Below, one piece after another: positions 23,701 through 57,966 of a DNA stretch of 64,000 nt. A model generated the notes under the pieces. It searched no databases. It was not told the DNA's origin and saw only the letters and a list, made by a program, of their open reading frames with translations. The stretch spans positions 23,685,106 to 23,749,105 of the forward strand of contig OX424560.1 of the NCBI GenBank assembly GCA_949152475.1. Direction: 5' to 3'. This stretch comes from Terebella lapidaria (taxonomy: Eukaryota; Annelida; Polychaeta; Terebellida; Terebellidae). Position 1 is the stretch's first letter. Every line of letters starts with the position of its first letter. Position numbers and translations under genes: made by a program.

Positions 23701-26700
23701 ATCTGAACAAATTTATTGTTTCTATGAAAGTACTGCCGCTGCAAATTATATTATTGATAATTTATCTAACTACTGATGTTAATTCAATGAAATATAGCTG
23801 GGAATATCAATACATGAGTATGCATTCATTGAGGTCTTGTACATACACATCTTATGCATGCATAACAGTTTTTTGTAGATTACAGTGCAATGTCTAATCA
23901 TGTAACCAACTGTAGACCATCATTATTGCCATACATGTAGTATGTATGTGGTAACAGACACACATAACGAGATAGAAATGTACAGCTCTCGCTACATCTA
24001 CAGTATATATTTCTGTTGGTATCTACGAGAATACAGGAGGAATGTTCCCCGTTATGTAACATTGTCCTGGTTTTATCCCTCTACGAATGTACATGTACTG
24101 GGCAATGTGTCAGTATAGCGATGATCACAAATATTTGCCCCCATCGACCGAACGACCGGCTGTAGGAAGAATGTTTGTCTGCTTCTGGCTGGCAATGATT
24201 ACATAATGTTGCAATGTACATGTACATAACCAACCACCATGCTAGAAATGGTTTGGATATTGGATATTATGAGCTAAGGCTTGTTATCAATTTCATACAC
24301 ATGAACGTAAACAAAAGAAGTCTTGAATCTGTTAGATCAAACCCAAATATGTCAAATTTTTTAAGCACATTTTTGATCTCATTATCATGTACCCGTAAAA
24401 TCAAAATTACTCAGCTAGCAATACACTATTTAAAATCAACCAAATTTGAAAACATGTATGTGAATATCACAAATAAAATTTCAAATTTCAAAGTGTGTCC
24501 GGTACTTACTATTCAGTGACTATGATCAGATCGTGAGTGGTTTCGAAAACTTCGACCATGTCAACAAGACGGGGATGTGTGACCGCCAGGTCCAGCATCT
24601 TGATCTCCTTTAGGACATCGTTCCGACAATCTTTACCCTTCCGGCGTTTCCGCAGGAACTTGGCCGCGTATTTTACACCAGTGACTTTGTGTTGGCATCG
24701 CTTGACCACAGCGAATTTCCCCCTGAAATCAAAACAGCAGTTGAATCAATGTGAAGTGAATTTCTAGAGTAGTTTTCAAATACTTAAGGACACCATGTTT
24801 TTAGTTCAGCTTTTGCTCGACTATCTGTCTGCAAAATGGTGGCTGTAAAGTCTGCTATTTACTGGTAATCATGCTCATTAAAAACTGATTGATAATATTC
24901 AAATTTTCGTGAGTAAAGTGAAGTTTGGCATGTATCGATGGGGTATTTATTCAGCTTGTTTAGCATATTTATTACCGTATACTTAGTACATCAGGATGTA
25001 CATGTACATGTTTAGTACAAGACTCGAGAAGATTGCTCTTAAAACTAAGTGATATAAGTCATCACGAATCGTTAATGGCCGTTTTAAATTTCACCACAGG
25101 AATGTGTGTCCAGTGTACAAATACATGTAAACGAGTAGCCATCAAAATGTACTTCTATTCGTGAGGAGCAAAATGAAACTTGAACTTTGAGCAAACTTCC
25201 GTGTCATTAAAATCCCCATAAAAATGTTTGGTCAAGCTCTTACAAATATTTTACAAAATCAATAAAATCATTCCTGTCACAGGTTGATCAATATATCTGA
25301 TATAACATGACTACAGCCAGCATGCAAAGATTTTTCACACACACAGTCCAGTTCCTCAGGGTTTTTTTTACCAATACATGTAGCAAAATATGACAAAGCC
25401 AAATTTGTCAGCAGGCCTATCTTCTTGCCTCGATTGTCTAGGACCTGTGTATTTACTATTTACCCATAGTTAGAAGTAGATTGATCACGTCGTCTTGAAA
25501 AATCAATCAATCTATATATGGAAGACAATAGCTAGGTTATCAAGATAATGTCTATTTGATGATCAGGGTGCCACCAAAAGCTGTCAAAATCACTCCAACG
25601 TTCACTCAAGTTTGTTGTGTACTCAAGATTTTTGCGAAAATCCTTTACGCAAATGTCAAAAAGCTGGCGCAATTACGTCATTTGATTCTTCGTTACACCT
25701 ACAGGATTCTTTCACACTAATTTGATAATGGCAACAAATTTTTTTTTATAATGTTTTGCAGTAATTTTCAAGAATTGTTCGCATAATGTGGCATTTTTCC
25801 TGCACAAATGTGGCTTGTCAGCATACTTACAAAAACTTAAATGCAGCCTTTGAAGAGCTCCAAAATCATGAAAATTAATGACATGATGATGTTTAGTCTT
25901 TCCCCGTCATTTAATTTTTGATGAAATAAATTTTGAATGAAACTCAGAAAAACTCTGAAATGTAATTTGTAACAGGTGATAAGTTCATGCAGTTTTTATT
26001 CATAATTTGTAGTTTGCAAAGTGCTTTGGTCTGGTAAATTCAATATTGAGTCGAATTTCATAAAATTTACAATTTTAAGTCAACCAAAGTCCAATAAATA
26101 CTAGTATATTGTTTGTCAGAACTAGCTTTGCATATCTTTACAATGAAGTATAAGGTATTGTTGAACGCAGAGTCCAAATAATCTTTCATTTATATTCGTT
26201 TAGTTTTCGAGGCAAAGGTGGCTAATCTAACAGCCAAGCACGAACATGTGACAATACTGTTTGCCTGTAGCTATGACGGTAAACTGGAGACTCCAACAAA
26301 CACAGATCGGAAAGCCGCAAAAATTGGGTGTGAGCGTATAACGCAGATTGTAAAGCTCGACGTCGAGTACATTATCCCCTATTCATATTTGATCAACGCG
26401 ACAAACTCACACCCTAATTTCACATTCATTGCGCCCTACAAAAGCGCATAACCACAGGTATGATCAAACAAAGCCTGAATCATGCCTTCGAAAGCAGCGA
26501 ACAATCTAGACATTTGACAAAAACAAAACTCTCCAAGTTGTTCAAACGAAGTTTTGAAATCAACTTTGCACCGCCCTTGCATACAAGGCAAATATATGGT
26601 AAACCTGGATTGCTCGATTTCGGAAAAACAACTCGAGACTCGGTGTGATTCGATGATAGTTTTCTGGCTAAGTGCCTTCAAATGGCATACTTATGACGTC

Positions 26701-27593
26701 TTCACACTACATGCACATAGATCTAACTCTATATTACGGGCCAATGCACAGGACTGTTTTGTTAGCACCTGGAACATGCACGATGCCTGCCAAGGCAAAT
26801 AACCACCCAAACAAAGCTGAAAGAGAGACATGTCATGTATGGTTTTTGGCTGAGGTTCATGACGAAAGTTTACAATAACAAAACGATACGAAAATATATT
26901 ACGCAGGAAATATCTGTGGATCCTAATCATATACATAAGTATGGCGTTATTGTTAGTAATTATCTTCAAAGTGACTTACTTACTTGTATGTGAAACCAAT
27001 AACAGATTATGTTTACTGGTACTTGTAATAAAATATACAGGAATTTTCTGAATATCAGTACTAATTATGGGAATACAAATTTTCCACTCAAACTCTCCCA
27101 AATCTTACCTTCCTATCTGTTCTTCAACAACATAGTGGTCTGCGAAACTGTCACTTTTTATCCAGGTCTTTTTGCCATTGGCTTGAACGGCACCGTTTGG
27201 CACGGAGGCTTTGGCATCGGGACTTGCAAACCCTATTCCACGGTGGGTTTTTGTCGATCGAACCATCTTCGGTGTACTTCGGGCAGACAACTGTCCATTC
27301 TCATCAGCACCGTCACGAAAGGCGGGATTTGGCATCACCATTTCTGAGGCATCACTGGCTTTTGACAAGTCTACCGCAAGTTTGCCAGAGTCTTCCGAGC
27401 TTTCGGTGGCACTGCAAACCATTGTCTTCGAGTGAATACTTTCAGAGTTGCATAAATCCTTGTTTTCTAAACTTCTAAATGGCGAGGGTCGAAGACTTGG
27501 TGCCTTCTCGTCACAAACAGTTGCAGGAGTAATCACTTTCAGCAAATTTGTTGATTCAGAGCAAACTTCTGAAATGTTGCATACATGATACAT
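2738..27593 (-). CDS. STK17A: DRAK/STK17-type serine/threonine kinase, 7 exons
   Basis: Death-associated protein kinase-related kinase (DRAK), a CaMK-group Ser/Thr kinase linked in animals to apoptosis and myosin light-chain phosphorylation. Coding exons in transcript order: 27593-27109, 24722-24510, 21937-21799, 5448-5325, 5174-5126, 3896-3717, 3233-2738. All junctions are GT/AG and the phases close, giving 561 aa. Residues 1-154 are a low-complexity Ser-rich N-terminus. The kinase domain runs about 155-412: glycine loop IGRGKFAVV, VAIK-type Lys near 183 ([12 protein letters not shown]), helix C Glu near 201, catalytic HLDIKPQN near 275-282, then GTPDYVAPE and [12 protein letters not shown]. 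The HLD-K-PQN form is typical of DRAK rather than DAPK. The metal-binding motif is DLG (297-299), not DFG. The C-terminal tail of about 150 aa is Ser-rich and unrecognised. The start ATG follows an in-frame TAG, but an acceptor-like site at 27569/27568 leaves another 5' exon possible. Invertebrates usually have one gene for vertebrate STK17A and STK17B. Confidence 0.93.
13962..15405 (-). mobile_element. Ty3/gypsy retrotransposon pol fragment (fossil)
   Basis: This is an incomplete, broken copy of a Ty3/gypsy-type LTR retrotransposon. The visible parts are a low-complexity linker with short repeats (about 15100-15405), a reverse transcriptase with the YADD-type active site, and the beginning of the RNase H region. 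No LTRs, gag or integrase are recognisable next to it. The RT still reads well, so the insertion is probably fairly young by the standards of such fossils. It lies in sense orientation within intron 3 of the kinase gene. Confidence 0.93.
15561..15986 (-). other. Unidentified open stretch of 141 codons
   Basis: A minus-strand open frame lies just upstream (in transcription order) of the gypsy fossil. The composition is protein-like in its second half (for example [20 protein letters not shown]), with some resemblance to a hydrolase-type fold fragment, but I cannot name a family. It could be a relic of a mobile element, an exon fragment or chance. Confidence 0.2.
21938..24509. other. STK17 intron 2; nothing else seen
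   Basis: AT-rich sequence between kinase exons 2 and 3. No repeat, gene or conserved motif was recognised. Confidence 0.7.
24723..27108. other. STK17 intron 1; nothing else seen
   Basis: AT-rich sequence between kinase exons 1 and 2. The intron splits the glycine-rich loop codon (AG/G, phase 2). No gene or mobile element was recognised. Confidence 0.7.
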
Positions 27594-27939: not shown

Positions 27940-28100
27940 TATCGGACGATGAAAACACATCTGCCAACTCTGATCGCTTTCACAACTTTTGACAACATCG
28001 ATTGCCCGGTGTCGCAATGTGCTCGAGCCAAGTCGCGCGCTGATTGGCTGACGATTTTGTGTACCGCACTATTAGTGGATTGGCGGTCAGCTCTGAAGCT
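27940..28100 (-). promoter_or_regulatory. Likely STK17 promoter region with CCAAT boxes
   Basis: This is a GC-richer island about 350-500 bp upstream of the kinase start codon. On the gene's strand it contains two CCAAT boxes (28047-28043 and 28083-28079), the binding motif of NF-Y. A short upstream reading frame begins near 27987. No TATA box is obvious. The assignment rests on position and motifs only. Confidence 0.35.
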
Positions 28101-30588
28101 GCTAGCCAAGTTTGGCCCAGATACGGTTTGTAGAAAGATACGGGGCACCTGCTTTTGTTTGAATGGTCGATGGCACACACATGACCATATGTACGTACAT
28201 CAGGAAATGGTTCCATCATAATTGCGTAGATTTATTTCAATTAAAAGTAATTATATATTCTGTGATGACCGTGGGAGCTATATGAATATGCCAATTTATA
28301 TGCAGTTGTATTTTTTCAAACAAATCGTTAACAAATCGTATCAAAGAAGAAACAAAGAAGAAATGATATACCCTAATCTAGTCCCTAATTGGCTCCTGGA
28401 AAAAGTCTAATTTTGTGCCCTGATTAGCACAGATCAACATACTAAAATGTCAAGCCCGTTTCTTACTGGTATTCTTTTATATACATATACATATACTTCA
28501 TATGTAAATTAAGTTTAAATTCTATACATAACATTATTGTTGAGAATCACTGATGTCACGTACTCGTCAACTATTAGGCCTTAATAGATGTATTTGAAAT
28601 GGTAAGGCATTAAACCTGGGTATATTCAGATACTTTGTCGTGATCTTGACATTACTCAAAATAGTTCACGTACGTGTTAACCACTCATGTCATAACTATC
28701 GTTTACACCAAATATACATCTCCTTGATGTCTATCTTCACTAATGTGTGTATATTATCTATTTAATAATTGATGCCATGTTCATTCGTCTTATTTATACT
28801 AATAAATACACCCATAACTGTACTTTCTCAGATTGATGGGCTGATAGCTTCGCTGAAGACGGGACACTGAACTTATGGATCAGCGTGTATCATAACGTTT
28901 CTATAACCTCAGAAATTGACTCTATCAATAGCCGACCTGCATGTCCAATGCCACAAGCTATTTCAGGAAATGATTGTGTTTTGAATGAAATTAAAATGCA
29001 CATCTCGTTCTTGCGGCATGTCGTGTTCATTACTCCAAATAACGAAGAGAAAACTACCAGTGAAAAATTTGCAGAACAAAATTGACTTTCCGCCAGAAAG
29101 GAAAACAGAGGGTTTTGCTTTCATGCAATTATTGATTTGCGATAGAAAAAAAATGAAGTATTTCCGGAAAAAAAAAATAAGCATGTCTCGTACAAAATAT
29201 GACAATTCACTTTCAAATTAGAAGAAATGAAATAACCTTCAAGACACACTCATTACAAAACGTCAATGTGATGTATGTCCACATGTTTGTGGGGTTGTTT
29301 CGAGTAGCAAGTCCTTTACAGGGCAAGACATTTTGGCCAAATGTGTGTTTACATTGTGTATATGTACATTATTTGTGATTCTATGATCTATTTAATATTC
29401 GGTTTCCTCAATATGTGACTTAAATTGTTTCTGACAGTTTCAGCCGAAGGCATTATGGTGACATAGGTATGTATTAATTACAAGGACCTACTTATATAGT
29501 CTTTATTCGTCCGAAGAAATCAATCTTGATTTGTAGGCTATATATCGTATTCTATGAAATTCATCCATTGTATATCAAATGAACGAGTGACAAATAATTC
29601 GAACACAAATCCCAAATCCATGATGATCTAAAACAAAACACACTTGGACAGAAGTTCCTACTCTGGATGTTTTGTTGTCCAAAATGTCCGGGCCAAAACA
29701 TTTTGTAGACAAAATGTTAGTCAAAACATGTAAACCATAGCATTTTATCAAACTGTCCGTTCCCCGATGGGAATGGGTGCTCGATAAAAATGTGGTGAGA
29801 AAAAAATCATAATAATTTAAGTTGGTTCTCCGATCCATCTTCGCCAATCTTGTTTTTTCTTCCATAATTCTTCCACGTTTTGCATTACAAGTATCACTGA
29901 GCTGAGTACCAATATAATTTCTCAACCAGTCTCTTTTAACTTTCAATTGCACCAAAATAAATTCATATTCGGAAAATAGAGTTTAAGTTGATTATGCTTA
30001 CATGTATTATTAATGAAATGTACTGTAACCACCATGGAAAAAAGAAAAGCCGGAAATATCAAACTGGCTACATGTAGAGGGCATTATAATTTGTAACACA
30101 TTATACTGCAAGTCAGTTTTAATTCTGATCTTCCTAAGCCGGACATACCATAGCATTGAGCAGTATGAAAATTGGGGAATTGTTTGGAGATGCACGATTC
30201 TATTGTATAGGCTGTTCACACCTTTTGAGACGCCTCTGCAGTATGTTTTTATCCCCAATCAAGGCTAACCATACAATTGCAATTAAGAACTTGACATGAA
30301 AACAATACTGACCAACGAACGCACGCTTGACACATATTATGCCATTCATATTTTGTTATTAACTTTGTTCCTAAGACAATGGCGGCGTATGGCGCTCATG
30401 AAATGGTTTAGATAGAGTGGTGAGAAATGAAAACACACAAGCACATTTATTCAGTTTTATTTTAGAATCATATTGCCAGAATGTAGAGATCAACTCATTT
30501 GTATTTCGACTGTGACACCATCAGTGTATATGGACCACTCAGACTATAACGAGTACTACTAGTATAATCATGGTGTTCTGTTTCAATT
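28101..30588. other. Intergenic, STK17 to peptide gene 1
   Basis: No coding feature was recognised. There is a small perfect inverted repeat at 29698-29717 (9 bp arms). Two AATAAA signals on the minus strand (TTTATT at 30446-30451 and 30456-30461) sit about 130 nt beyond the stop codon of peptide gene 1 and probably end its transcript. Confidence 0.5.
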
Positions 30589-31503
30589 TTAAACAACGTC
30601 CAAACTTCGCATCTTTGCAATCCACAGGGCCAAATTTTGCTGCATTTCTTCCTCGAGAAGAACGTCCATCAACGATTCCTGCAGAATACCAATAAGTCCA
30701 TTAGTTATAACATAAAATACCAATGTGCTTACCAGACATAAAAAAGAAATTAAAACATGTTAACAAGTGAAACATGTAGGCCTACGTGTAAAGCTGTGAT
30801 GAAACCGTTTAAGGAGGCATCGAGAAATTTGACACTTTAATGGTTACATTTTGAGAGTATTTTTTGTCTTTGCGGATGAGAGTGCCTATTTACTGGTAAC
30901 ATGCACAATATTGTATATATATATTGAAATAGAATATATGTTATTCAGTAGAGTGTACATATTTTTCATGGTGTAAAAGTTCCGGTGTTCTAGTATATTA
31001 ATACATATTATTATCATTCTGTACATTAATCAATGTCTAGCACTCGTCAACTGTGCCTATTAGATAAACTTCAATTGGCAAGGCTTGTTGACATGCCGAC
31101 ATGAAAATCTGAAAAATGCATGAAATAATGTACTAGTATATCAATACATATTATTATCATTATGATGAAGCACAGTTGATTTGAACCATGAAAAATTACA
31201 TGTAATCTAACTCACAAAACGACTGTATTGATACGATGATAGACAATGAAATGATTTTCGAATAAAATATTCGAAACAGGACATTACCTTTTCATCGTCG
31301 AGATCTGCATCTCGATACAAAGCTCGTTGATTTTCCTTCGATTGTGTGTTGAAGATATTCCTTTCCAACGGACGATTTGGTGCCAATCTCGATCTATTGA
31401 CATTTTCTTGCGCGATGCCGTGCTTTGGTCTGACCCAAAAGGGTCGAACGAGGTTATCTTGAAGCAGGAGCACGAATAACAACAACATAAACTTGGGCAT
31501 CAT
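30589..31503 (-). CDS. Secreted peptide precursor 1 (unknown family), 2 exons
   Basis: Exons 31503-31288 and 30678-30589 are joined by a phase-0 GT/AG intron (donor AAG|GTAATG, acceptor CTGCAG|GAA) and give 101 aa. The N-terminus MMPKFMLLLFVLLLQ is a clear signal peptide. It is followed by a basic and Asn-rich middle with single-Arg or Arg-pair-like cleavage possibilities, and no cysteine. Exon 2 encodes a strongly amphipathic, acidic-then-aromatic helix (ESLMDVLLEEEMQQNLALW, then IAKMRSLDVV and stop). Two AATAAA signals follow. A second gene of the same plan lies 2 kb upstream. Signal peptide, small size and absence of other domains fit a neuropeptide or hormone precursor. The C-terminal helix is faintly like class B GPCR ligands, but this is only a resemblance. 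Confidence 0.6.
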
Positions 31504-31942
31504 CCTGGATATACTGATTGATCTTTGCTTTCACCGTTCGGATTTTGAAGTTTTGAAGCTTGCTTCCTGCATATATTAACTGTAAATATTGAACAGAAAC
31601 CGATAAAAATTCTGAAATATCACGAGGGAGCATCTACATTTTATATCTACTCTAAACCTACTTTTTTGTCAAATGACGAATTGGCCATACAAGATCGTGA
31701 AATTTCAATTAAAACAATGTGCGAGATTATACATTATTCACGCGTTTCAAGCATTGCTTTTTGTGGATGAATTGGCAATGACGCCTGGATGTTTTACATG
31801 CGGGCAAATGATTGGTCCACTTGTAGATTGTAATAGGTCACCAGCCAACGTATTTTACATTTCCTGTATCCACGTCATTAATGCCTCATGCCCGGTATTG
31901 TTTTGTCTGACACATGCGCAAATGTAAATTGAAAACATTTAA

Positions 31943-32835
31943 AGTACTAGTATAGTGAAAATATGATGTGAACTTATATGAAAGATCTCATTGATCTGAG
32001 CAAAATGGTTTTTACGGCATGTAGATATCACAATCCGTTCAAAAGTTATAGCAATTTAAAGACTGAAATCGGCAAATTTGCTTTTTCAAAGCAATTTAGC
32101 TAATTAGTATGCAAATGAGATATTCATGACGTCATCGGGGGAAGTTGTTTTAATTAGGTACTTTGATATGTATTATTCATTCATTTAATGTTATGATTAT
32201 TCATCAAAACTCATTCTATACAGATTTTAATATGAATAATCAGTGTTTTCACTTTTTCTTTTGTTGTCAAGGTAACCCGTGACCTGGTATGGCCCATAGC
32301 AACCATGGTTGCTAGGGCCAGAAACCCACTTAGAACAGGGTATGCACAAATAAAAATGGTGCCAACTTGAGCTCTATAATAATTTATTTCATAAATTATC
32401 GACAGAAAGTCTGTGGATAGACTGATTTGGCAGTTAATGGCCATGGCAACCATGGGTGACTACGGCTATAGGGAGCGACTGGTAACCATAGCAACAGTAC
32501 AGTTTGTGTGGATACTGACTATGTATGGTATATAATAATATACACTAGTCAGATCGTCAGAACCTTCAATACGTATCATTATATCGTGGCTTGAAATATC
32601 CTAATTAAAATTTGTTCCCCTCGTGACGTCATGAATTCTCATTATCATCTGATTTGCATATTAATGAGCTGCTAGAACTTTTCAAGTGGCTCCTGTAATG
32701 TAGTGCCGGAATGGCAGTTTCAAATGGCTGTAACTTTTGAACGGATAGAGATATTGATACACCGTAAAGACCATTTTGCTCAGATCATTGAGATCTTTCA
32801 TATAACAAAACATCATATTTCATTTTACTAGTACT
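31943..32835. mobile_element. TTAA-flanked MITE, 893 bp, with long terminal inverted repeats
   Basis: The ends are AGTACTAGTA and TACTAGTACT, each bordered by TTAA (31939-31942 and 32836-32839), the target duplication typical of piggyBac-type transposition. The inverted repeats run at least 115 bp with clear similarity (shared blocks such as GATCTGAGCAAAATGG and CCGTTCAAAAGTTA) and weaker similarity continues to about 200 bp. There is no transposase frame. Each arm carries an octamer ATGCAAAT (32109-32116; reverse 32652-32659) and a CRE TGACGTCA (32127-32134; 32624-32631). The centre holds an 18 bp palindrome TAGCAACCATGGTTGCTA (32297-32314) and an RFX-like X-box at 32481-32495. Confidence 0.85.
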
Positions 32836-33538
32836 TTAATATTACTTGTTGCACAAGTGTGATATATGGGAAGTGCATAAGCTGATGGAAATTGACAAGA
32901 ATCGTGAATGAAACATGAAATTTTAATTCAAATGATGGATACCGAAATATTTAAACAAGCACCATTGTAATTATAAGTTATTTCACTGGCACATAATCGT
33001 TCGAAATTACCGATATTAAAGTCTTACTGCCTCTCAGAAATTACATTCATTTACGTATAATTAGGCTATAACTTTTAATTTTGTGAAATGATAACAGGAC
33101 ATATCAATTTCAACCACCATAGAAATTATATGTTATTATTTTCATCTTAGTTTTGACAGTGAAAAACAACACATGCATGAAAATAAGGTTTCACTACGAA
33201 TTTTAGAGATATGTACAACACGTAAAATAGTTTGCGAGGCATGTGGTGATAATAATTAATTAACGAGCCAATTTTATACAATCAAAATGCCAATTCATTA
33301 CTTTATATTCGATGACTCATCATTGAAATTAATAAATGCACAAAATACGTGCTCATGTAAAATCCTCGACTGTTTTTTCTTTCAGAAACGACCATATGGA
33401 CCGGGGTGTACAAACGAAATCCATGAAACGATATACCTAACTTGCATGCTAAGGTCACAAGTCTTGGAGTTTCTATTAGGCGTAGCCTATTGGAGCACAT
33501 GTGATATCATATATCCGACCATTTCAACATTTCCCCGG

Positions 33539-34009
33539 TTATGATCCTGTGTGTTGGTCCTCTTCTGCCAGGGCACGTAACAACATCAGCAAAACGTATT
33601 CTTGATCTTTGTCGAAGGTCTTTTGCTGCCGAAATGGAATGCAAATGAAATTCTATTTACTTCAATGTGTGGCAGTGTTAAGAACATACAATATGCTAAC
33701 ATTCATAGCATAAATGTCTTGTCTTAAGTTAGATTATTAAAATTGAGATTCACAGTCAAAAAGGATAAAGTTAAGGTGGTGAGGAAGAAAAATATGCTTT
33801 TATACCTTTTCAAGAAACGCCCCGTATTCCAACATCGGTGATTTGACCCTGACGTGGTCACGGATCCATGGGTTCTTCCTCAAAATGTTTTGACCGTCAT
33901 CCCTCGAGATCGGAATTTCAGTATTTCGTTTCCCGTTGGGGAAGCTCAGAAGGAAAGAATTTGCCCCTCCGAAGATAAATATCAACAAAAGTAAAGACAT
34001 TTTTAGCAT
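33539..34009 (-). CDS. Secreted peptide precursor 2 (unknown family), 2 exons
   Basis: Exons 34009-33806 and 33625-33539 give 96 aa. The intron is phase 0, with donor GAAAAG|GTATAA and acceptor TCGGCAG|CAA. It falls after a Glu-Lys exactly as in peptide gene 1. The signal peptide is MLKMSLLLLIFIFGGANS. It is followed at once by FLLSFPN-GKR (33955-33926), a classic amidation plus dibasic cleavage site, so a heptapeptide amide is predicted. The remaining proregion has another basic pair (ILRK) and no cysteine. Exon 2 encodes QKTFDKDQEYVLLMLLRALA and then an acidic tail, again an amphipathic helix. The layout (signal, short amidated peptide, associated peptide) is that of a neuropeptide precursor, but I do not recognise the peptide. 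Confidence 0.6.
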
Positions 34010-34366
34010 GTTTTGTCTATCCCTAGCTCATGAAATGATGTTTTATATCGATCGCACATTTGTTATATACTCCTAGAAATGATGGGTGTGTTTCAAACTT
34101 TGTGAAAATTGAATGCGGGCAAGCTATCCAATGATGGGATGTGGGAGCAATTAAATCATCTGGTCATCATCCAACCCTCAACTAAACGCCCGACAGACAA
34201 TTTAATGAACCAAAATAGTCATATGGAAATATAATCCTCTTTGGACTAATTTCTACATGTGACATGGCACGCAAAACTAGATCTATGTACGTTTTTGGCT
34301 ACAGCGCGTATTATAAAATATGGTAAAATTGTCTGAAGATATCACTGCGATTACTGTATCATGATA

Positions 34367-35000
34367 CAGGGTGGCCCAGAAAAAACCCAACCGAAACATA
34401 CAAGCTCAAGTAAAGGGTATTATGCCATACAATTTCATTCAAATCGATCTTGAGCATCAAAAAAGCGGCCTATCCATAAATATGCACATGATGTTGAACA
34501 AAATGTTTCAACTAAAAATTTTGGTTATAGGTAAGTTTGAATCATTGTATATAGATTCCCACTTGTACATTTCAAAAATGATGAATCAGCAGAAATGTCT
34601 CAACTCAGTGTTGAAGATAAAGATTATCCTGTTGAAAATATGATAAGAGTGTACTTTTGGGAGAAACAATAGTCGCAGCATCAAATGGATATCCAGTACC
34701 AAGAACCATCCAGGAACTGAAGAATAACATCAGCAAGTCATCTTTTTTGTACTCGATAACGATCTCCGAGCAATTTGACGGAGAAAATTATGCGGCGAGA
34801 TTGTGGCCAAAGGCAGACATTTCGAACACTATGTTTACTGAACTTTACTGTCATTGGAAGTCAAATGTTATATCTCAGACGGCGTGTATTTACTTATTTA
34901 TTGTTTTCTTCCATTTCGAATGTGTTTGTCACACTAGGCTGGTATGGCATACCACAGGAACGAGTTTTTGTTTCGGTTGGGATTTTTTGGGGCCACCCTG
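34367..35000. mobile_element. Mariner/Tc1-type MITE, internally deleted
   Basis: Inverted repeats of about 30 bp start CAGGGTGGCCC at both ends and are flanked by TA (34365-34366 and 35001-35002), as in the IS630/Tc1/mariner superfamily. The interior keeps a short stretch near 34657-34740 reading NGYPVPRTIQELKNNI. This resembles the C-terminal tail of invertebrate Tc1/mariner-like transposases. The catalytic core is missing, so it is a non-autonomous derivative. Confidence 0.75.
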
Positions 35001-35448
35001 TACCATGGACCGTTACACTTATATACTGGTCCTAAAACGGAAATAAATAGTGTGAATATAGAATCCGTAAATATTTAATTGATGAAACATTCACTAAGTA
35101 TCCTGCTATTAAATATCAGTATAATTAGTAAATGTTTCATAAATAATCGATATCATTCATATGAATACACGACAAACAGATGAATTTCATGAAAACACTA
35201 TTTATTAAATATTCACATACTTGACTACCATATGTACACTCCCTATAATTTATTTGCATGGTAGACATTATACGTACAAGTATAGGCTTATTCAACGGAG
35301 ATATCTCTGATGTTTTTAAAATCATATGATCAGCGTAATACATGTAGTTAATCAGCATTAATAAGAAACCTAACAACGGAAATAACAGATACAATTTATA
35401 CAAGTACTTACAAGTATCGCAAAAAAATTAACTGATTCAATCATCGTG

Positions 35449-36204
35449 TCATGAAGATGGTTGAGTTTTTGTGCTTTGTTTCTCCTCCAATGACTCCAAT
35501 TTATCTTCCAACTGTAAATCTGGATATACGGTGGGATATTTAGAAACACATTTCTCAAAGGCTGAATGTGAAACCTTGCAAACATTAGGATCGGCTTTTC
35601 CCTTTGGGAACACACATCTAGTGATAAAATTCCTGTACTCCATAGCACAAGGTCCGTAACTCATATTGCCATGACAAGGACAGTTCCAATTTACGTCGCC
35701 ATTTGGAAGGAAATATTCGTGTTTCTCAGCGCCTGTGTGTTGAAAAATGAACGTGCTATATAATCAGATCGAGTAACATCCATTGAAACCATGCAGTTTT
35801 GAATACTTGAGTTCGTTTCAAGGCATGTGAATGTATGTATATTGCCACGATTGATCGTTCCTCGACCCTACCATTTGGCACTACATGTATATTGCCAATG
35901 GTGGGAACTAGAAATCATGGCTGAGGCCTACACTACCGAACTACAAAATATAGGCCCACGAATAGGAGTATACACCGTTGCGTAGCCTAGAGTCGATATA
36001 TACCTTGTGGCTTCTCTCCAAGCGTTGCAGGTTGAACTTTGGCGTCATCATCTTTTGTCAAAAATACCACTCGATCCTTGCCTGAAACATATGGTCAATA
36101 TTTAATTTCGGCCTGCCATAGACATCCAGGTGCCATATGAAACGGTCCAAAATCACAAGTTTTTCTTGAAATATGTACAAACCCTTCGGTTGACAGAACG
36201 ACAT
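35449..36204 (-). CDS. CHCHD4: MIA40/CHCHD4 mitochondrial import oxidoreductase, 3 exons
   Basis: MIA40 oxidises and folds small cysteine-motif proteins entering the mitochondrial intermembrane space, passing electrons to ALR/Erv1. Exons 36204-36183, 36081-36004 and 35732-35449 join with correct phases to 127 aa. The tiny first exon encodes MSFCQPK, matching the human start MSYCRQE. Then come KDRVVFLTKDDD, the redox CPC motif in NWNCPCHGNMSYGPC, and the paired-cysteine helices. The second pair is a normal CX9C (CKVSHSAFEKC), but the first reads CAMEYRNFITRC, a CX10C. KYPTVYPDLQ and a Lys/Glu-rich tail follow. There is no presequence, as expected. A minus-strand AATAAA (35206-35201) lies about 245 nt after the stop. 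Intron positions resemble those of vertebrates. Confidence 0.93.
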
Positions 36205-36305
36205 TTTGTATTAATGTTGTGAAATACACTTTATAATTGAAGATCCCTGAGATATATACACGTATGACTCGAAATTCTGATGTAACAAATTTGTAAACAT
36301 TAGAG

Positions 36306-36345
36306 CACGTGCCTACACGGGCTACATGTGCGAAGGTGAAGGTCA
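36306..36345 (-). promoter_or_regulatory. Candidate CHCHD4 promoter motifs: ERR half-site and E-box
   Basis: About 100-140 bp upstream of the CHCHD4 start codon lie CACGTG (36306-36311) and TGAAGGTCA (36337-36345, plus strand). The second matches the extended half-site TNAAGGTCA bound by estrogen-related receptors, known regulators of nuclear genes for mitochondria. Motif evidence only. Confidence 0.3.
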
Positions 36346-37169
36346 CGGGGTTTTCTCATGTAAAGACACACCACAGTAAACAGTGCTGCGGGTTGTAGGT
36401 TATCAGAAGTCTGAAATTTGAGAGGAAAATAAAGTGGTCTCACAATGAAAAATATGCATTTCATGTGGGTCTGTTATCCGAAATATGATTATCGGCAAAC
36501 AATCTGGCGCTTTTTGCATAAAAAGTTAAGTAACCATACACTAATAAGCAAATTCAAGATTTGCATTATCAGCACATGATTACGTTTGCTCATTCTGAAC
36601 AACTTCATGATATCACTCATTATTTTGAAAACTTAAAATTATTTTTGCCAGATCCGATTAGGTTAGGTTCATGTTATTGTTCAGCATGGAATAATATTTA
36701 TCAAACGTGTAAGAAATATATGTATAGGATTTATTGCAGTGACAAGCTCCAGTGCTAAATATGAATGGGTGTCCATGGTTTTATCTTCTTTATAAAATTT
36801 GTGCAAGACTTCGTTCCTCCTACATTACATTGTGCGTGGGTGGGTTTAGGTTGAGGGGAGAAATGAAAGTGCTTTCAAGATAAATTTAAACATGTACCAC
36901 ATTTATTTACACCGGGACGTAGCTTTATTTTCTGGGGTCCCATGTCGCGAGCAGTATATTTGCTCTACAGCCATCCATGGCCCTCGCCTTCTATAAATAA
37001 TTTTAGAGCATTAAATGGGCAAATGCACATACCCCCGTAATCTTTTGATGGGGTCCAAAACTAGGTAAAGCATATCATATTTTATTTAAACTACAATGAT
37101 CATGCATTTCTGGGTTCAAACTCATGCTTGATGATTAGATCCAGGAGAGCTCTGGAATGCTGTATTAGG

Positions 37170-38091: not shown

Positions 38092-38185
38092 TATTGACCT
38101 TCATTTTGGCTCTGATTTCTTTGTACCGAGTCCAAGATTATTACCCAAATTTCCCATTTATTCTGGTTATTAAGATCAGATTACT

Positions 38186-38209
38186 ATGATGAAAGTTGTA
38201 GCAAAATGA
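38186..38209 (+). CDS. Upstream ORF overlapping the AF10 start codon
   Basis: A seven-codon frame MMKVVAK starts at tandem ATGs (38186 and 38189). It ends in a TGA (38207-38209) that overlaps the AF10 ATG (38206-38208) as ATGA. If the leader starts at the promoter motifs above, ribosomes meet this frame first, and AF10 would need leaky scanning or reinitiation. Whether it is translated is unknown. Confidence 0.4.
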   Translation: MMKVVAK

Positions 38210-41200
38210 AGGAAATGGTTGGAGGATGTTGCGTTTGTTCTGATGAGAGAGGCTGGTCGGAAAATCCCTTGGTTTACTGTGACGGTCATGGCTGCAATGT
38301 CGCCGTGCACCAAGGTTTGACAATTTGGCCTACTTTTTGGCGGGGGTGTCGGGTTGTTGTGTGTATTCAATGTGGATAGCATGTTATGTGAGTGTGCACA
38401 CCACACATGTAATAGAAACGTCTCATAAGCAAGCTATGAGTCTCGTCTGATCTTTAGTTCAGAATATAGTCTCAATTCGACCAGTTTTTTTTTCGGAGTG
38501 TGAAAAATGTCAAGCAATCACACTGATTCTGAATCGACCAGTCCATCTTGGTACCTTGCTTGATCTTATTTGTAGAATGAAAAGTGATGTCCATAAGAAA
38601 CATGATAGACCTCTACTGCCAAATATGACTGAAGACAACTAATTTTATTTTACCTAAATTAATCTAGATCTACTTTGAACTAATATCATAATTATGACAT
38701 ATGGGCCTTATCGTGAAATAGGTCCCGCTTATTTCGTACGTTATGATTTTAGTGTGTACCTCCATCCACCCCCACCACCACCCTCCAGGATTCTCCAAGA
38801 TATAGAAGTTGACTGAAAACATTAAAATGGTGTTACTGTTTTAACTGAATAAGCCTTGTCATAATGTAGCGGGACCTATTTCACGAGAATGCCGACATAT
38901 GGGTTTGAGAAAACACCAACTGTTTATGCTGTTGAACTGCTCCCCCCCCCCACCACCCCCTCTCCCTTCTCAACACATTCCTTCACTCACCCAGTCACTG
39001 ATAACCAGCTGCTAAGTATAGATCTGTATTCTGTAATCCAGTTCTGTTTTGATCAATGCATTCTGATATATTTCTATCGATTATCATTATGTTACCTGTG
39101 TTGCACATGCAAACAATTTCAAATAATTAACACATGACTGCTATTCTCTGGTGGTGTATGGATTTGAGAGCTTTGTATTTCTGTTAAATTTACTTTTCAT
39201 AATTGAATGTACATAAGATGACTACCTATATACTCTGAATCTGCATTTAACGCTACGGGTTCTGTAACTAAACCTCGCCTGTCATATCGTAATCCCTTTC
39301 ATACTGTTCGAAAACTTGCACATCATTTTGTTTTGATGTTGTCCGTAAGAAATAATAATAAAGTTAACAAATGTTTGTTACTAATCTAAATGACGACCAG
39401 TTAAGTTTTATGAGTTAACCATCTACATGTACACTTATATATTGCAGCATGTTATGGGATAATTTCTGTTCCAAGTGGGCCTTGGTTTTGTCGCAAGTGT
39501 GAATCCCAGGAGAGGGCAGCACGTGTGGTGGGTATTTTAAACATTGTTCATGGTATATATAACTTAAAAAACTATGTACAAGTGCATTGTATTATCTGGA
39601 TATAAGTTTGATTTTAGTTTAGTTTCACTTTCAGTTGGTTGTTTATTTTATAAATGGAAAAGGATTTTTTTGTAATAATAGTTGTCGAAACATTATTCCA
39701 GGTGTTGTTGTAGTACATAAATTTAGCAAATCTGTAGATCATTAACCAATGTCTGTAGTTTGTGTATTAATATCTTAATGTAAAATTGGTTGATGCCAGG
39801 TAGTGATACTAACACTTTATAGCTTTATATTGCAATTAAGGTGGTCTCTGTAAGATAAGACTCCATATTCACTGTAAAGGAAAGTCTCGTCTAACAGGAA
39901 GTCCTTTTCACAGGTTCATTCAATTCTAAATTAGTCTTTGGAGAATGAAGAAGTCTTCATAGACAGGGAGGTCTCATTTCGGTTCGATTTCGGATGTGTC
40001 ACATCATGTTGCGACACATACTAGTGTAAATTTTGTACATGTACATTGCGTTTTCCTCACAACATGTACCAGATATTATGAAGCTTTCTACTTCACTGTA
40101 CATAGATAATATTGCCATGTTTACCAGAAGAACCACCTGAAAGGGAGTGCCTGGGCTGGTCTTGTATATGTCACTTGCATAAAATGTTGCATTTGACAAC
40201 CATGACTTCCAGCGAAAACACACAAAAAAACCCACGGTGTATCTAATCTATCAGATAAGAAATACTCACTCTAAAAATTTACCAAAAAAAATTGAGAAAC
40301 AAATCGAAAGAAATGTGTTTTCCCCCCGCTTGTGCCTGTCCATAGGTGGGAGCTGCTAGTCGAAAGTCGCAAAAGCCTGTCAAGCTGACAGACCAGGCTT
40401 TGCCAGCAGCCCAGGCTCTACCTCAACACGAGACCACGGTAAACACACAGTGATTTGACCAACTCGATTTGGATGTCTTGTGTTTTTTGCATGTGTTGGT
40501 GGAATACTGTTTGCGAGTTATAAATGTGGAGAAATATGCAGAAGAAGAAAACATGGAGAAAAGAAAAGAAAATTCAGTTGTAAAGACTATTAGGGGCCAA
40601 TAGGGGGTTTCGCTGAACATTTTGGAAAATAGGATTTATGATTTCAAACATTTTCTGTAGTCCTATCCTTCCTGTTTATCCTTCTCTCTCCTTTGAGTCA
40701 CTATTATAGGATATGTCCCTTTATGAAATAACCATAGGGATATTATCTCCCATTTGTAGAAGTGTGAGCTCTGCCCACAGAAGGATGGTGCGCTCAAACG
40801 GACAGACACAGGAGGTGGGTACTCTATCGTAAAATTACACTATTTATCTGGAGTCCAACAATAAAAGGCATTTGAAATGTCCATATATTCATCCAGTAAA
40901 AAACTTTGTTTTCAAACATCTTTTGTTGCTCAGACTTGTGACTTTTTCGATGTTCTCACAGTTGTATATTTTGACCCTAGGTTGGTGCCATGTGGTTTGT
41001 GCTCTGTTCGTCCCGGAGGCCTGGTTTGGTAATGTCCAAACGATGGAACCAATCATACTCAAGGGTGTGCCACCGGAGAGATTTAACAAGGTATTGTTAA
41101 AGACCTAGTAGCATGCCGATGAAAGTGCTTTTCATTTAGTCCATTATGAATAGTTATCTGTGAATTTGAACGCATTTTACAAATACAATCAATGGGTTTC

Positions 41201-44200
41201 GAGATATTGAATCAAATAGGCACTCCTTCCGTAAATTGCCGAAGATTTTGATCACGATTTTAGTATGGGTCACGTGGTTTGTGACGTCATTTGAGGCAGT
41301 ACTGAAAGTACATGTAGCCAGCAAGGTAAACTGCATGTCGCATATTCATTCTCTTTGTGTATGTTTGGCATTCCAAGTGAACGGGTGAGATGGTTGGAAT
41401 ACGGCATTTCTTGTCTTGATATTTAGAATCAGTACTATTCATTCTACCAGAAGGGAGGTTTGTTGAACTGAAAGATGTCCAGTATTTGTTGGTTTTCATG
41501 TGTTTTCTTTTGAATCTCATGCATTTTGGAGTGGTTTTCTATCTTTGAGATGACCGCCCAAATTATGTGTTTTACGTTTTTGGCCAGCCATCAAAGCACA
41601 TTTTGCCCCAACTGACGTCACGATTACGGAAACTGCCGAAGCTATTTTTTAGGTTACCGGACCTATGGTCCGATAACCTATTGGCATGGCGTTGCGTTCG
41701 TCGTCCGGCGTCCGTCGTCGTCGTCGTCGTCGTCCACATTTTTATCTTTTTTGTTTACGGGCGAATTTTTCTGAAATTTTGCACAAAAATACTTAAAAAT
41801 AATTCAAGAAGGAGGTATTTTTTAGTTTTTTGATTTTCACATTTTTTTCAAAATGGCGGCCGTTTTCGATGAAAAATGCCTGATTTTGGACTTTGGCGGC
41901 CATTTTCTCAAAATCTGTTCAGTAACTTTTTTTCTTTTTGATACATAACACTCCTCATATGTACTCCTATGATGTCTATGAATTTCGTTGCGCTTGAATC
42001 GCTCGAAGTGGGCCATTTTGGCCCAAACTCGGCCCAAATGGGACTTTCCCATGTTAAATTCTCCTATGCTTTATAATGGGACACATTATGCCTAATATCT
42101 CACTCAATATTGATATCAGAGACTAGGAATCAATTGTGGACATATAAGAAATGATATATGCTGAATATTCTCGTGACCTTGAATTTGACCTCTGACCTCA
42201 GTTTCAAGGTCAGAGCACAAAATGGCTTATATCTCGCTTATTATCGACTCTACAGCTTAGGAATCAATTGTGGACATATAGGAAATGATATATGCTGAAT
42301 ATTCTCGTGACCTTGAATTTGACCTTCGACCCCATTTTCAAGGTCATAGGACAAAATGGCTAATATCTCGCTTGTTATTGACTTTACAGCTTAGCTATGA
42401 ATTATGAACAGGAAATGATATATGCAGATTATTGTCATGACCTTGAATTTGACCTTTGACCTCATTTTCAAGGTCACAGGACAAAATGGCTAATATCTCA
42501 CTTATTATCGATTTTACAGCTTAGGAATCAATTGTGGATATATAGGAAATGATATATGCTGAATATTCTCGTGACCTTGAATTTGACCTCTGACCTCATT
42601 TTCAAGGTCCAAGGACAAACTGGCTTGTGGACAAATTGTGGACATGATATAGAAAATGATATACTTTGAATATTTTGATGACCTTGAATTTGACCTTTGC
42701 CCCTTCATTTTCAAGGCCACAGCATAAAATTGCTAATATCTCTCTGATTATTGAATTTACAGCTTAGCAATCAACTGTGGACATGATATATGCTTAATGT
42801 TATATATGCTGAATATTCTCTTGACCTTGAATTCAACCAGTGACCTGGCTAACATCTAAAATATTCAACATTGTCCGGTAACCTATCTTCGGCCCTTGGC
42901 CTAATTTTTCATCAGCATGAGAAGGCGATTGCAATACTGGCTCAATATACTCGATTATATGTCGCTGTTATTAATTACCAATTAACGCGAACATCTTTTT
43001 TATCACCAAATGTCCACAATGCCTTTATCTGAACAGGAATAAAACCTTATAATGGTACCTTGCTACTATGACTTTAAGTGACATTGTGATGGATGAGCTG
43101 AATAAACATTCTGATGCATGAGAAGTTCCCTGCGAAAGAAATGACTATGAAATTCTATATTCTGATCAGGGATGGGGTCAAATACGTATTTGTACTTGTA
43201 TTTGAAATACACTAAATCTTGTATTTGTATTTGTATTTGACGAATGGAGTGATATTAAAATTAGAGCAGAATGTAAGTTTCGCCACAGCATCACAAACCA
43301 ATTCTGACATCGTACATGAACTCTGTTTCAGTGTTGCTATGTATGCGAGGAACAGGGTCGCGAGACCAAGGCACAGACAGGGGCCTGCATGCAGTGCAAC
43401 AAAAACGGCTGCAAACAACATTTCCATGTCACTTGGTAAGTGGGGATATATAAATCTGACCCACTGTTCCAACTTCATCTTCCTTACTTTAAAGCAAAAG
43501 TGTTCATTGCTGAAATCTGGAGAAATCATGCACTGACGGATATTGCTTTGGTTTGCTTCCAGTGCTCAGTCACAAGGTCTCCTTTGTGAGGAGCAGGGCA
43601 ACTACATGGACAACGTCAAATATTGTGGCTACTGCTCACTTCATTATAAGAAACTGGTAGGGATATCAACATAACATCAAGCATAACCATATCTAGTATA
43701 TGAAACCATTTTCTTCAGAAATTTAAGTGGAAACTGCTTCTGATAAAATTCAGCAGATGTTCAATAAATAGTCATTGCCCACGTATTAAATATGTTGATA
43801 ACTTACATGTTCTGTATGTTGAATCACCTGCTTCAGAAGAAGGACAGCCATATTAAGACGATCCCCGCTTTCAAGCCAATACCCGCAGACAATGCCACGC
43901 CGGAGGGTACGCCAGAGAAATCCAATCAGTCTCGGCAGGACAGACGGGTGAGTTCTCAAAGAGTTCACAGGGAAAGTAGCATGAATTACTATTGATCTTA
44001 CTATAGATGAGCATAAGATACTGTTTGTTACAAAAGACAGCAAAGACTCCTAACATTAAAAGTAGTTGGCAATAACTGTTAAAATAAATTGAATTATATC
44101 TTCCTCAGCGAGAGAGACTTGGGAAGTCGCAGATCTCTGAGTCTGCCAACAGTCCACGGACGGGGAATGAGTCTGGCTACCCTCCGGGCTCTGGACAGGG

Positions 44201-47200
44201 TTCTGGTGGTGGGAAAGACTCCGTAACTGACATAAAATCCACGGGGAAGTTCACCACCGCCAATTTCCGAGAGACAACTATTACTCCGAGTCCAGCGCAC
44301 TTTGACTTCTCCTCTCCGGGATCCAGTTCCAGCACGGGTGGCGGCGGTAGCACGCCCACACACGAACGTGAACGCAAGGAAGGGAAGAAAGGCGGTTACG
44401 ATAAGCGATCCAATGATAATATTGACGTGTATGACTCGGATTTCATTGACGCTGATAAACGCAAAGTTGGGATACTTGGAAGTCCGAGCGGGCGGTCTGT
44501 GGCAGCGGCGAAGGAGTCCAAGTTTTCCTCTGTGTATGCGGCGGGGGCCGGCAATGAGAAGCCCTCGAAGTCGGGGCAGTCGACGCCATCTCGAACGCCC
44601 CCGAGGGGAAGCGGACCAGCTTCTACGTCACCGGCCACTTCCACGACTCTCACTAGTGGTAGTTCAGTGTCTAGTACCTTGGGAACAACGACAACAGCCA
44701 TGGCAACCACTGTTACTACGACAACAGCTGGCAGTGGAGTCACTACCTCGACTACCTCTGTGTCGCAATCCGGGTTTTCATATTCATTCAAGAATTTTCT
44801 GAACAGCCACGGCTATCAGGAAGGTGAAAAAGCATCCTCAGATAAAGACATGGATATTCCACCAGCCAAGAGACCAAGATCACGGTAAGATTTAGTCTTC
44901 CATATCGACAGTGAAACTTGGTGAATCATGAAATTAATTAATTATACGACCTAAATTTCATCTTGACAGTTATGTTTGATAAATGAATACATTTCCTGCC
45001 ACAGGTCATCGGAGAAGTCTGAGAAGAAAAAATCCAAGAAAAAATCAGAAAAGCTCCTTGAAGCCGATGAGCCACCGTCTCTGATCCCAGACGTTTCCAT
45101 GGCAACGTCCACAAACTCGACTCCAACCGGTGCCGGCAACAAGGCAAAGACCGTCAAGGACTTGCTCGCGGTGACAGGTCGCTCATCCCCAGTGACTCCT
45201 CCCTCCACTGCCAGCCCTAGCACGTCTGGGACCACCCAGACCGGTCCACAGGGTTCAGGTGGCCCTCCAAGTCAGCCTGGTTCTGGGGGCCGGATCCGCA
45301 AGCCCGGCAAACGGAAGAAGTCTCAGAGTGATGGCTTTGCTTCGGGTGGGATGCCCACTCTGCAACCACAAGGGTTAGTGCGAAGGAATGATTAGTCTAA
45401 GGGCTGAGTGCGGAACTGATACTTTAGGGTAAAGTATTATTTTAGCAATGATAAGTACATAGGAAAAGTGACATGTTCACCTGAAATATAAGTTCCGCAC
45501 TCGGTCCATAGTGACATAACTGTTTCCTATGCTCATAGCATGAACAAACTGAACTGAGATTTGATTGTAATATATAATAACAATTGTGATTTCTAAAACC
45601 TGCTAAACTACAGTTTACAGTACCAAATTGCAGTTAAAATATATAAAATCATGCGGGAACACACTTAGATTACCGGTATATTACTCATTACCAGTATATC
45701 TATATATTGTAGGGTATACGAGAGTAACCCGTTCAGTGGTGGAGCTGGAACCACACCTCTCACTTTGGCCAGCCTCGGCAAACAAGGTACGTCCAATAGG
45801 AACTTAGCAGATGTGCGAATAACTTTGTAATGGTGGTGGATTGTTGACTGTATGTACAGGACTCTAACTTTGGAAATGTTTCGGGGCTTTTTGATAATAT
45901 GACGGTTGCATCTACGTTATGTATTATCTATTCACCTGTAATATGCTACTGTATATAGATACATATATATATATATATATACACCTATATGTATATCAAA
46001 TGGCAGACCTACTGTGAACTGATGATCTATTTCTTTTCATGTATATAGAGTTCCTATAAAACAAATGGCCAAGAAAAATGATATTTGGAACAATTACCTA
46101 TATCTTCATCTCCAAATTTCATTTATTGTGTGAAAAAATGCTTTCGAAGAAAATCTGTAAAAATCACAGATCACGACATCGGTTTCCAGTGGGCTTTCAC
46201 TGCACTGCTATCAAACATACATAATCACTGCTGCTTCATTCTAGTTCACTCTTTCTCTCATTGTTCTTGACCTCCCTGTCCCCTTTGCCCCTTCCGTCCA
46301 ACTCCCACGCCACAAAAATAGCCGAATCCCCCAGTAACAAAGACACGGGTGACGGGCCCCCAATCCTAAGCCAGCAGGTCCCCGCTCCCGCAGAGACCCC
46401 ACCTCACTACGGCCCCGGCCAGACCCCGCCACCTCCCGTCAACCACCACCAGGCCCCGCCCACCTCTGCCTCCACCTCCTCTCTCCCCGAGTCTATCGGT
46501 CTCGGTTCTCGAACCTCTTCTGCTGCACATGCTTCCTCATCACACACGGGCGGACCTACCGAGAGCAAAGGTAGGCATCGCTCATGCTCAACACGCTAAT
46601 CACGAGGTGGTTCTGTCTTACTCGTATTTATCTGTGTAATATATCACTGCCTTGCCTAGAGAGTTTCTAGCATGTGTATAAGCCTATATATAAACGCTTC
46701 ACTGATTGCATTTTGGTTCAATTAATCGCACTTCAATGCTTATATGTGCGAAAAACTATGCATGCATAAAAAAAGCTGTCTATTTGAGTAATAAATTGAA
46801 TATCTGACGAATCACATCATCATGAATATTCATGATCTTCATTGCCTCTAGGTGCAGCCCCAGACCTGACTGAGGGATTGACCAATGGCCCCAGCAGTCT
46901 GATTGGACCTCCCAAACCCTTCAGCTCCGGCAACAAGGGGCTCCTCTCACCTGGCAGAAATGCTGATGGACCGTGAGTCATCTGTTTTACTATTTCCTTG
47001 CCAAGCCATTAGCAACTTTGTTAGACAAAATTTCAAATGAGAAATGAACTACAAATCTTCCTGCCTAACTAATAATGGTGACCTTTGGAACGATCGTTGG
47101 AAATTGTACTGAAGTATGGACTAAATCTATGATAAAATGCTTTGTATTAACTTGAGAATCAAATGTTTTAAGGTATAGTCCTCAAATGTTTGTTGGGAAC

Positions 47201-57708: not shown

Positions 57709-57729
57709 GTTGGGGGCGAAGCCCCCAAC
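57709..57729. repeat. Perfect GC hairpin at the LINE 5' junction
   Basis: GTTGGGGGC-GAA-GCCCCCAAC is a 9 bp perfect stem with a 3 nt loop in otherwise AT-rich sequence, lying directly at the truncated 5' end of the LINE. Confidence 0.8.
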
Positions 57730-57966
57730 TCTCTACATGTCTATGTGCTGACTTTTTCATGGAGGTTTCATGCCAACATATCAACGCCCGTTTTGGCATG
57801 TACACGTTTAGATACCTACTTCAAATGAGGATTTTCTTCGTCCTTGACATAAAATCTCTCCAATTAATAGCAAACTTCGAATATACCACAGATATATAAA
57901 GCATAAATCGATGTGTTAGTTTTGAGAAAAATACGAAAAACGCTCAGGTCGTCTTGAAAACGTCAA

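Follow-up and report, generated by a model that had tools for sequence, protein, structure and literature searches.

We describe here two adjacent genes, A and B, on the minus strand of a 64,000-nucleotide stretch of the genome of the annelid Terebella lapidaria (contig OX424560.1, positions 23,685,106 to 23,749,105 of the forward strand; this whole stretch is called the window, and positions are given within it unless stated otherwise). With a probability of about 50%, A and B are two real, adjacent orphan genes encoding small cysteine-free secreted proteins, of which A is most likely a proneuropeptide and B may be either a paralogue without processing or a protein that acts whole. An earlier reading made from the sequence alone had drawn two minus-strand genes of 96 and 101 amino acids (aa), each with a signal peptide in an exon of 68–72 codons and a phase-0 intron after Glu-Lys, and its coordinates, lengths and layout hold. 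Exon 1 has 68 codons in A and 72 in B, with hydrophobic-core scores of 3.27 and 3.52 (from a simple scale used in place of a dedicated predictor), and translation places both introns, with GT-AG ends, in phase 0 directly after Glu-Lys (Table 1). Neither protein contains a Cys. A and B are probably lineage-restricted members of a well-known kind, namely orphan secreted-peptide genes.

Gene A is a probable proneuropeptide, judged by the anatomy of its predicted precursor (MLKMSLLLLIFIFGGANSFLLSFPNGKRNTEIPISRDDGQNILRKNPWIRDHVRVKSPMLEYGAFLEK from exon 1 and QKTFDKDQEYVLLMLLRALAEEDQHTGS from exon 2). The cleavage site of its signal peptide was set by eye, without a dedicated signal-peptide predictor, according to the −3,−1 rule, and the cleavage context there, again by eye, is good. 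The seven residues FLLSFPN come straight after the predicted signal peptide and lead into Gly-Lys-Arg. The precursor carries potential dibasic cleavage and amidation sites at KR27, at RK44 (Arg44-Lys45) and as GKR at residues 26–28; a G[KR][KR] motif falls within the first 15 mature residues in 294 of 20,000 shuffles. In the mechanism we propose, signal peptidase would remove the signal peptide, a prohormone convertase would cut the precursor at Lys27-Arg28, the basic residues would be trimmed and Gly26 would be converted to a C-terminal amide, so that a single-copy peptide, FLLSFPN-amide or SFLLSFPN-amide, is set free. Cleavage at Arg44-Lys45 would detach a helical C-terminal piece from the remainder, and both this piece and NTEIPISRDDGQNIL would be spacer or associated peptide. 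Secretion, processing, amidation and any receptor are inferred.

Gene B (MMPKFMLLLFVLLLQDNLVRPFWVRPKHGIAQENVNRSRLAPNRPLERNIFNTQSKENQRALYRDADLDDEK from exon 1 and ESLMDVLLEEEMQQNLALWIAKMRSLDVV from exon 2, with a second possible start Met at 31500) shows neither a dibasic nor an amidation site in its translation, the nearest being RSR37, and hormone status is not supported for it. The suggestion of the sequence-only reading that both genes encode a peptide hormone or neuropeptide is plausible for A, with its signal peptide, GKR and Arg-Lys, and unsupported for B. Since gene B lacks a standard prohormone site, it might be either a paralogue that has lost its processing or a small secreted protein that acts whole, in either case secreted with a long C-terminal helix. 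AlphaFold2, run without an alignment on gene B alone (mean predicted local distance difference test score, pLDDT, 68.6), predicts a single helix at residues 51–100 that spans the exon junction and is confident at 71–90 (block means 92 and 95). The prediction for gene A, made with gene B as sole partner, is a low-confidence model (mean pLDDT 54.3) in which residues 58–68 and 74–93 form the main helices. The last exons had been described as amphipathic helices of 28–29 codons; the lengths and the predicted helicity stand, but the amphipathic moment does not rise above that of shuffles (408 and 2277 of 3000 reach it).

Both gene models are very likely real. The strongest evidence for the two genes is their in-frame triplet composition, which supports the coding frames and the layout of both. 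Codon position 2 is GC-poor in all four exons in the predicted frame, and the GC13-minus-GC2 contrast is reached by only 2 (A, exon 1), 13 (A, exon 2), 0 (B, exon 1) and 11 (B, exon 2) of 3000 stop-free non-coding stretches and, for the four exons combined, by 0 of 20,000, although the measure was picked after the composition had already been seen and the null stretches overlap. Exon GC (0.436 and 0.437 in A, 0.440 and 0.433 in B) lies above that of the genes' own introns. In both genes, on a crude matrix, the proposed donor has the top score in its own open reading frame (ORF), and the proposed acceptor shares the top score with one other site within 1.5 kb downstream. The rival acceptor in gene B, with 31108 as first exon base, scores equally, and the exon that it would open is without the triplet contrast (602 of 3000 reach). 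In a simulation of 1920 kb of strand, none of 19 signal-like ORFs yielded a two-exon model with a phase-0 intron, in a scan whose threshold had been lowered post hoc to admit A and B; a first strict scan of both strands had returned no models because both donors fall under its threshold. Among real loci (L018–L049), 1 of 13 signal-like ORFs has a two-exon model, and none of the five listed ORFs, all below 150 aa, has one, so that the positive lies among the eight longer ORFs. Further ORFs with a hydrophobic start occur in the window at 43427 (minus), 12349 (plus) and 56258 (plus).

The similarity of layout raises the question of common origin. A and B lie about 2 kb apart on the same strand, each with one intron of equal phase (after codon 68 in A and codon 72 in B), with exon 1 ending in Glu-Lys and an exon 2 that has 28 codons in A and 29 in B, with a predicted helical C terminus, and with a weak TATA-like GATATAAAA upstream (found four times in the 64-kb window against 1.72 expected, a count that 14 of 100 shuffles reach). 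All these features are consistent with an old tandem duplication of a single fast-evolving gene for a peptide, whose layout was kept while the sequence diverged past recognition; we regard this as a tentative alternative that falls somewhat short of even chances, and it is compatible with the favoured reading of gene A. The sequences themselves, on the other hand, argue against it. The score of the global alignment of the mature parts is reached by 1124 of 3000 shuffles, that of exon 1 past the signal peptide by 2213 and that of exon 2 by 2390, and even the whole proteins with their signal peptides are matched by 204 of 3000; BLASTP of A against B gives a best E of 5.4, and a search for residual DNA similarity between the two loci found none (best E 0.44). 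Furthermore, prohormone sites are present in A and absent from B, and the donor consensus in part accounts for the Lys common to both junctions. The low identity between A and B that the sequence-only reading remarked on is thus borne out, whereas the old local duplication that it proposed is not shown. Because the mature sequences are no more alike than shuffles, what speaks for duplication is layout and adjacency only, and on the shared layout, strand and adjacency it is possible but unproven.

That A and B are instead two unrelated, neighbouring small secreted proteins with no hormone function, for example of mucus, epithelium or the reproductive tract, is rather unlikely in our estimate. 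It accords with the lack of A–B similarity in protein and DNA and of a dibasic site in gene B, and the failure to find relatives is expected for fast-evolving secreted proteins; it sits poorly with the Gly-Lys-Arg placed just past the signal-peptide region of gene A, at the shuffle frequency given above, and with the closely matched layout of the two genes. Unlikely too is the more ambitious proposal that A and B, at this locus between CHCHD4 and STK17, founded a family of annelid signalling peptides not described before, of which only exon layout, intron phase and the helical C terminus would survive, while A would yield FLLSFPN-amide and B would be a longer, unprocessed ligand.

A number of observations weigh against the favoured reading of two real secreted-peptide genes and have to be set beside the composition. 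First of all, both donors are weak in absolute terms (Table 1), chance alone should give about one signal-like ORF per window, and the GC level of the exons is matched by 9–10% of same-length windows nearby. In gene A the unspliced frame meets a stop one codon past the exon 1/intron junction; FLLSFPN has no pyroglutamate, and we know of no family signature in it. In gene B the cleavage context near the hydrophobic core is, by eye, poor, and the absence of prohormone sites described above belongs here too. Second, two of three known or likely coding controls are without the triplet contrast. It is missing from the CHCHD4 control exon (342 of 3000 reach) and from an STK17-like stretch at 27108–27539 (identity by eye; contrast −0.024, with no null sample at its length), and present in the STK17 exon at 24512–24745 (0 of 3000). 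Third, codon usage, in a test trained on 30 G-protein-coupled-receptor (GPCR) loci, does not clearly support coding for either gene: the summed log-odds are negative (−8.0 for A and −12.5 for B), which is −0.08 and −0.12 per codon, compared with −0.33 for CHCHD4, +0.25 for STK17 24512–24745 and −0.04 for the STK17-like 27108–27539. Non-coding open stretches reach the codon score in 2.2% of cases for exon 1 and 14.8% for exon 2 of A (0.8% and 18.8% on synonymous usage only), and in 12.7% and 9.1% for B (19.6% and 24.9%). That A and B are not genes as drawn, being chance ORFs or exons spliced in another way, is nevertheless improbable: the weak donors, the chance rate of signal-like ORFs, the equal-scoring acceptor at 31108, the codon usage and the control exons favour it, but the contrast in all four exons and its absence from the rival exon, together with the failure of all 19 simulated ORFs under thresholds set to admit A and B, argue against it.

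The sequence-only reading had called the family unrecognised, and this is upheld by the searches. With E values of up to 10 allowed and within the filters that HMMER applies, Pfam, NCBIfam (which has prokaryote coverage) and PDB gave no relative of A or B. In the worm's own 762-Mb genome each full protein, at E up to 10, found only its own locus, and a 35-residue piece of gene B found, apart from itself, one 39% match (E 8.7). Against viral contigs, exon 1 of gene B gave 11 stretches with the pattern, and exon 1 of gene A against prokaryote genomes gave 138, none of them confirmed; exon 1 of gene A against viral contigs gave 24, of which one was confirmed (L050). This viral match covers 18 residues at 61% with E 2e-5, a value relative to the candidates only and for a stretch preselected by an 8-residue pattern, and was taken as chance. 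Rfam gave no match over 28000–37000. A literature search on FPN-type peptide strings returned only papers unrelated by title, and passages of PMC6425005, PMC6969523, PMC4200219 and PMC7737342 contain nothing identifying A or B. Peptide families confined to annelids have been named, among them LEQ, MNC, DLa, SLRFa, QERAS and FVMa (PMC3890597), and PMC7737342 likewise names such families; A or B may belong to one of them.

Four known families resemble A or B in part. First of all, the annelid GnRH-2/proto-AKH precursor (peptide pQFSFSLPGKWGNamide; PMC5024129) is like gene A in that a signal peptide is followed directly by an amidated peptide ending in ...N-Gly-Lys-Arg, but gene A is without its pGlu, Trp, Cys and intron inside the peptide. 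The hallmarks of GnRH/AKH/corazonin are a pGlu N terminus and a Trp in the peptide, and for AKH and CRZ the C-terminal part of the prohormone is described as holding a cysteine bridge (PMC5024129); this group was ruled out, as FLLSFPN has neither pGlu nor Trp and A and B have no Cys. The worm has a GnRH-2-type gene of its own (L051), found at E 0.6 with the GnRH-2 peptide as query, on the minus strand of contig C1 near 6,362,600. It encodes two consecutive peptides, QFSFSLPGKWGN-GKR and SFSFSLPGKWGS-GKR, the second without an N-terminal Gln, and its intron, placed by eye, splits the first peptide inside its first Gly codon. Unlike gene A, it has this intron within the peptide and, again by eye, Cys in the part of the spacer that was read.

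Second, pleurin, known from the scallop as IFYTNKEGNDFPRIamide, occurs in brachiopods, nemerteans and some molluscs as a single peptide right after the signal peptide (PMC5996578, PMC8557429). The layout of gene A fits the lone post-signal peptide and the one intron, and its candidate peptide likewise has an FP near the amide, but this peptide would end in FPN-amide and B has no amide site, so that neither has the FPRI-amide-type C terminus of pleurin. Third, echinoderm bombesin-type precursors are like A and B in being of about 100 aa, with a signal-adjacent peptide and a phase-0 intron in the C-terminal part; in addition, a phase-1 intron interrupts their peptide, which carries a PRXN and a GPXX-amide or GXLM-amide motif, and CCHa/EP are named as the related protostome peptides (PMC12002301). 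By eye only, 'SLALYIANL' of ArBNP resembles 'NLALWIAKM' of gene B exon 2. The bombesin type was ruled out, since exon 1 is unbroken in both models and PRXN, GPXX-amide and GXLM-amide are absent from both. CCHa/EP peptides carry cysteines, and A and B have none. Finally, the last exons of A and B recall ELH/DH44 (CRF) in a loose Leu/Glu helical pattern, compared by eye, but they have neither flanking dibasic sites nor a C-terminal Gly. This family was ruled out, there being no amidated helix between dibasic sites in A or B; Platynereis has two DH44 precursors, one with 13 copies and the other with 16 (PMC3890597).

Among the peptide precursors and peptide receptors of annelids there are still orphans, and FLLSFPN-amide and the exact splice junctions are testable candidates. 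If A and B are true duplicates, they would exemplify peptide genes that keep their structure after their sequence has become unrecognisable; if they are not, they would be an ordinary pair of lineage-restricted secreted-protein genes.

Table 1. Coordinates of genes A and B and of associated features, in positions of the window.
Feature	Position	Strand	Remarks
Gene A (whole model)	34009-33539	minus	96 aa, 2 exons
Gene A coding exon 1	33806..34009	minus	68 codons: signal peptide, FLLSFPN-GKR, spacer; donor AAG/GTATAA
Gene A predicted signal peptide	33956..34009	minus	residues 1-18, ANS^F
Gene A candidate amidated peptide	33926..33955	minus	FLLSFPN + Gly as amide donor + Lys-Arg site; cleavage and amidation inferred
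Gene A intron	33626..33805	minus	180 bp, phase 0, GT-AG, after Glu-Lys; GC 0.306
Gene A coding exon 2	33539..33625	minus	28 codons + stop; predicted helical
TATA-like GATATAAAA, gene A	34041..34049	minus	about 30 bp before the gene A start codon; weak
Gene B (whole model)	31503-30589	minus	101 aa, 2 exons
Gene B coding exon 1	31288..31503	minus	72 codons; signal-like N terminus; donor AAG/GTAATG
Gene B intron	30679..31287	minus	609 bp, phase 0, GT-AG, after Glu-Lys; GC 0.307
Gene B coding exon 2	30589..30678	minus	29 codons + stop; part of predicted helix 51-100
TATA-like GATATAAAA, gene B	31639..31647	minus	about 135 bp before the gene B start codon; weak
Two AATAAA signals	30446..30461	minus	past the stop codon of gene B
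Repeat of about 901 bp	31939..32839	minus	between A and B, outside both; inverted-repeat-like ends

The 0.5 kb past gene A holds only variants of the polyadenylation signal (AATATA at 33309 and ATTAAA at 33079). A and B sit between an exon of CHCHD4/MIA40 and one of STK17, as the sequence-only reading had placed them, and both exons are identified by PDB matches: 2k3j for CHCHD4/MIA40 (E 9e-16; no Pfam match) and STK17B for the exon at 24512–24745 (E 2e-20). The repeat between the two genes has at least 41 other near-full copies at 94–100% identity, with 40 of 1954 candidates scored, and a 100% copy on contig C13 suggests recent movement.

Elsewhere in the window, 52280–53543 and 53682–54944 are near-identical, about 1.4 kb apart and with the same two minus-strand open frames each, apparently a tandem duplication. 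By eye, a 941-codon open frame at 54910–57732 (minus) is like a non-LTR (long terminal repeat) retrotransposon endonuclease/reverse transcriptase, a 480-codon open frame at 13965–15404 (minus) is like a Ty3/gypsy-type reverse transcriptase, and plus-strand open frames at 38116–50000, with a PHD-finger start at about 38200, are MLLT10/AF10-like and divergent from CHCHD4; Pfam gave no match for the first of these frames.

The assembly also contains a mitochondrial contig, C438, of 15,973 bp, with, on one strand and in this order, nad4L, nad4, a frame-poor stretch, nad1, nad3, nad2, cox1, cox2, cox3, nad6, cob, atp6 and nad5. The genes were named by eye from translations, cox1 and cox3 also by Pfam, and atp8 was not identified; the echinoderm mitochondrial code was used, which leaves the gene identities unaffected. 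The frame-poor stretch after nad4 is where the rRNAs would lie, and the non-coding DNA that separates atp6 from nad5 contains a TA repeat at about 13,200–13,600. In annelids, pogonophorans and myzostomids, nad6/cob follow cox3, atp6 lies between cob and nad5, nad5 and nad4L/nad4 are interchanged and nad3 lies between nad1 and nad2, and the major non-coding region is between atp6 and nad5 in Clitellata, Maldanidae and Terebellidae (PMC2639372). The gene order of C438 most likely points to an annelid. ARAGORN with the bacterial code found no tRNA in locus L013. A further stretch, L014/L015 (C417:44633-46450; 24% GC), holds a COX1 frame, about 700 codons long, that has a large insertion and reads TGA as Trp, followed by a frame that by eye is ND1-like. 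We take this stretch to resemble a ciliate mitochondrial genome, so that DNA of a ciliate associated with the worm may be present in the assembly.

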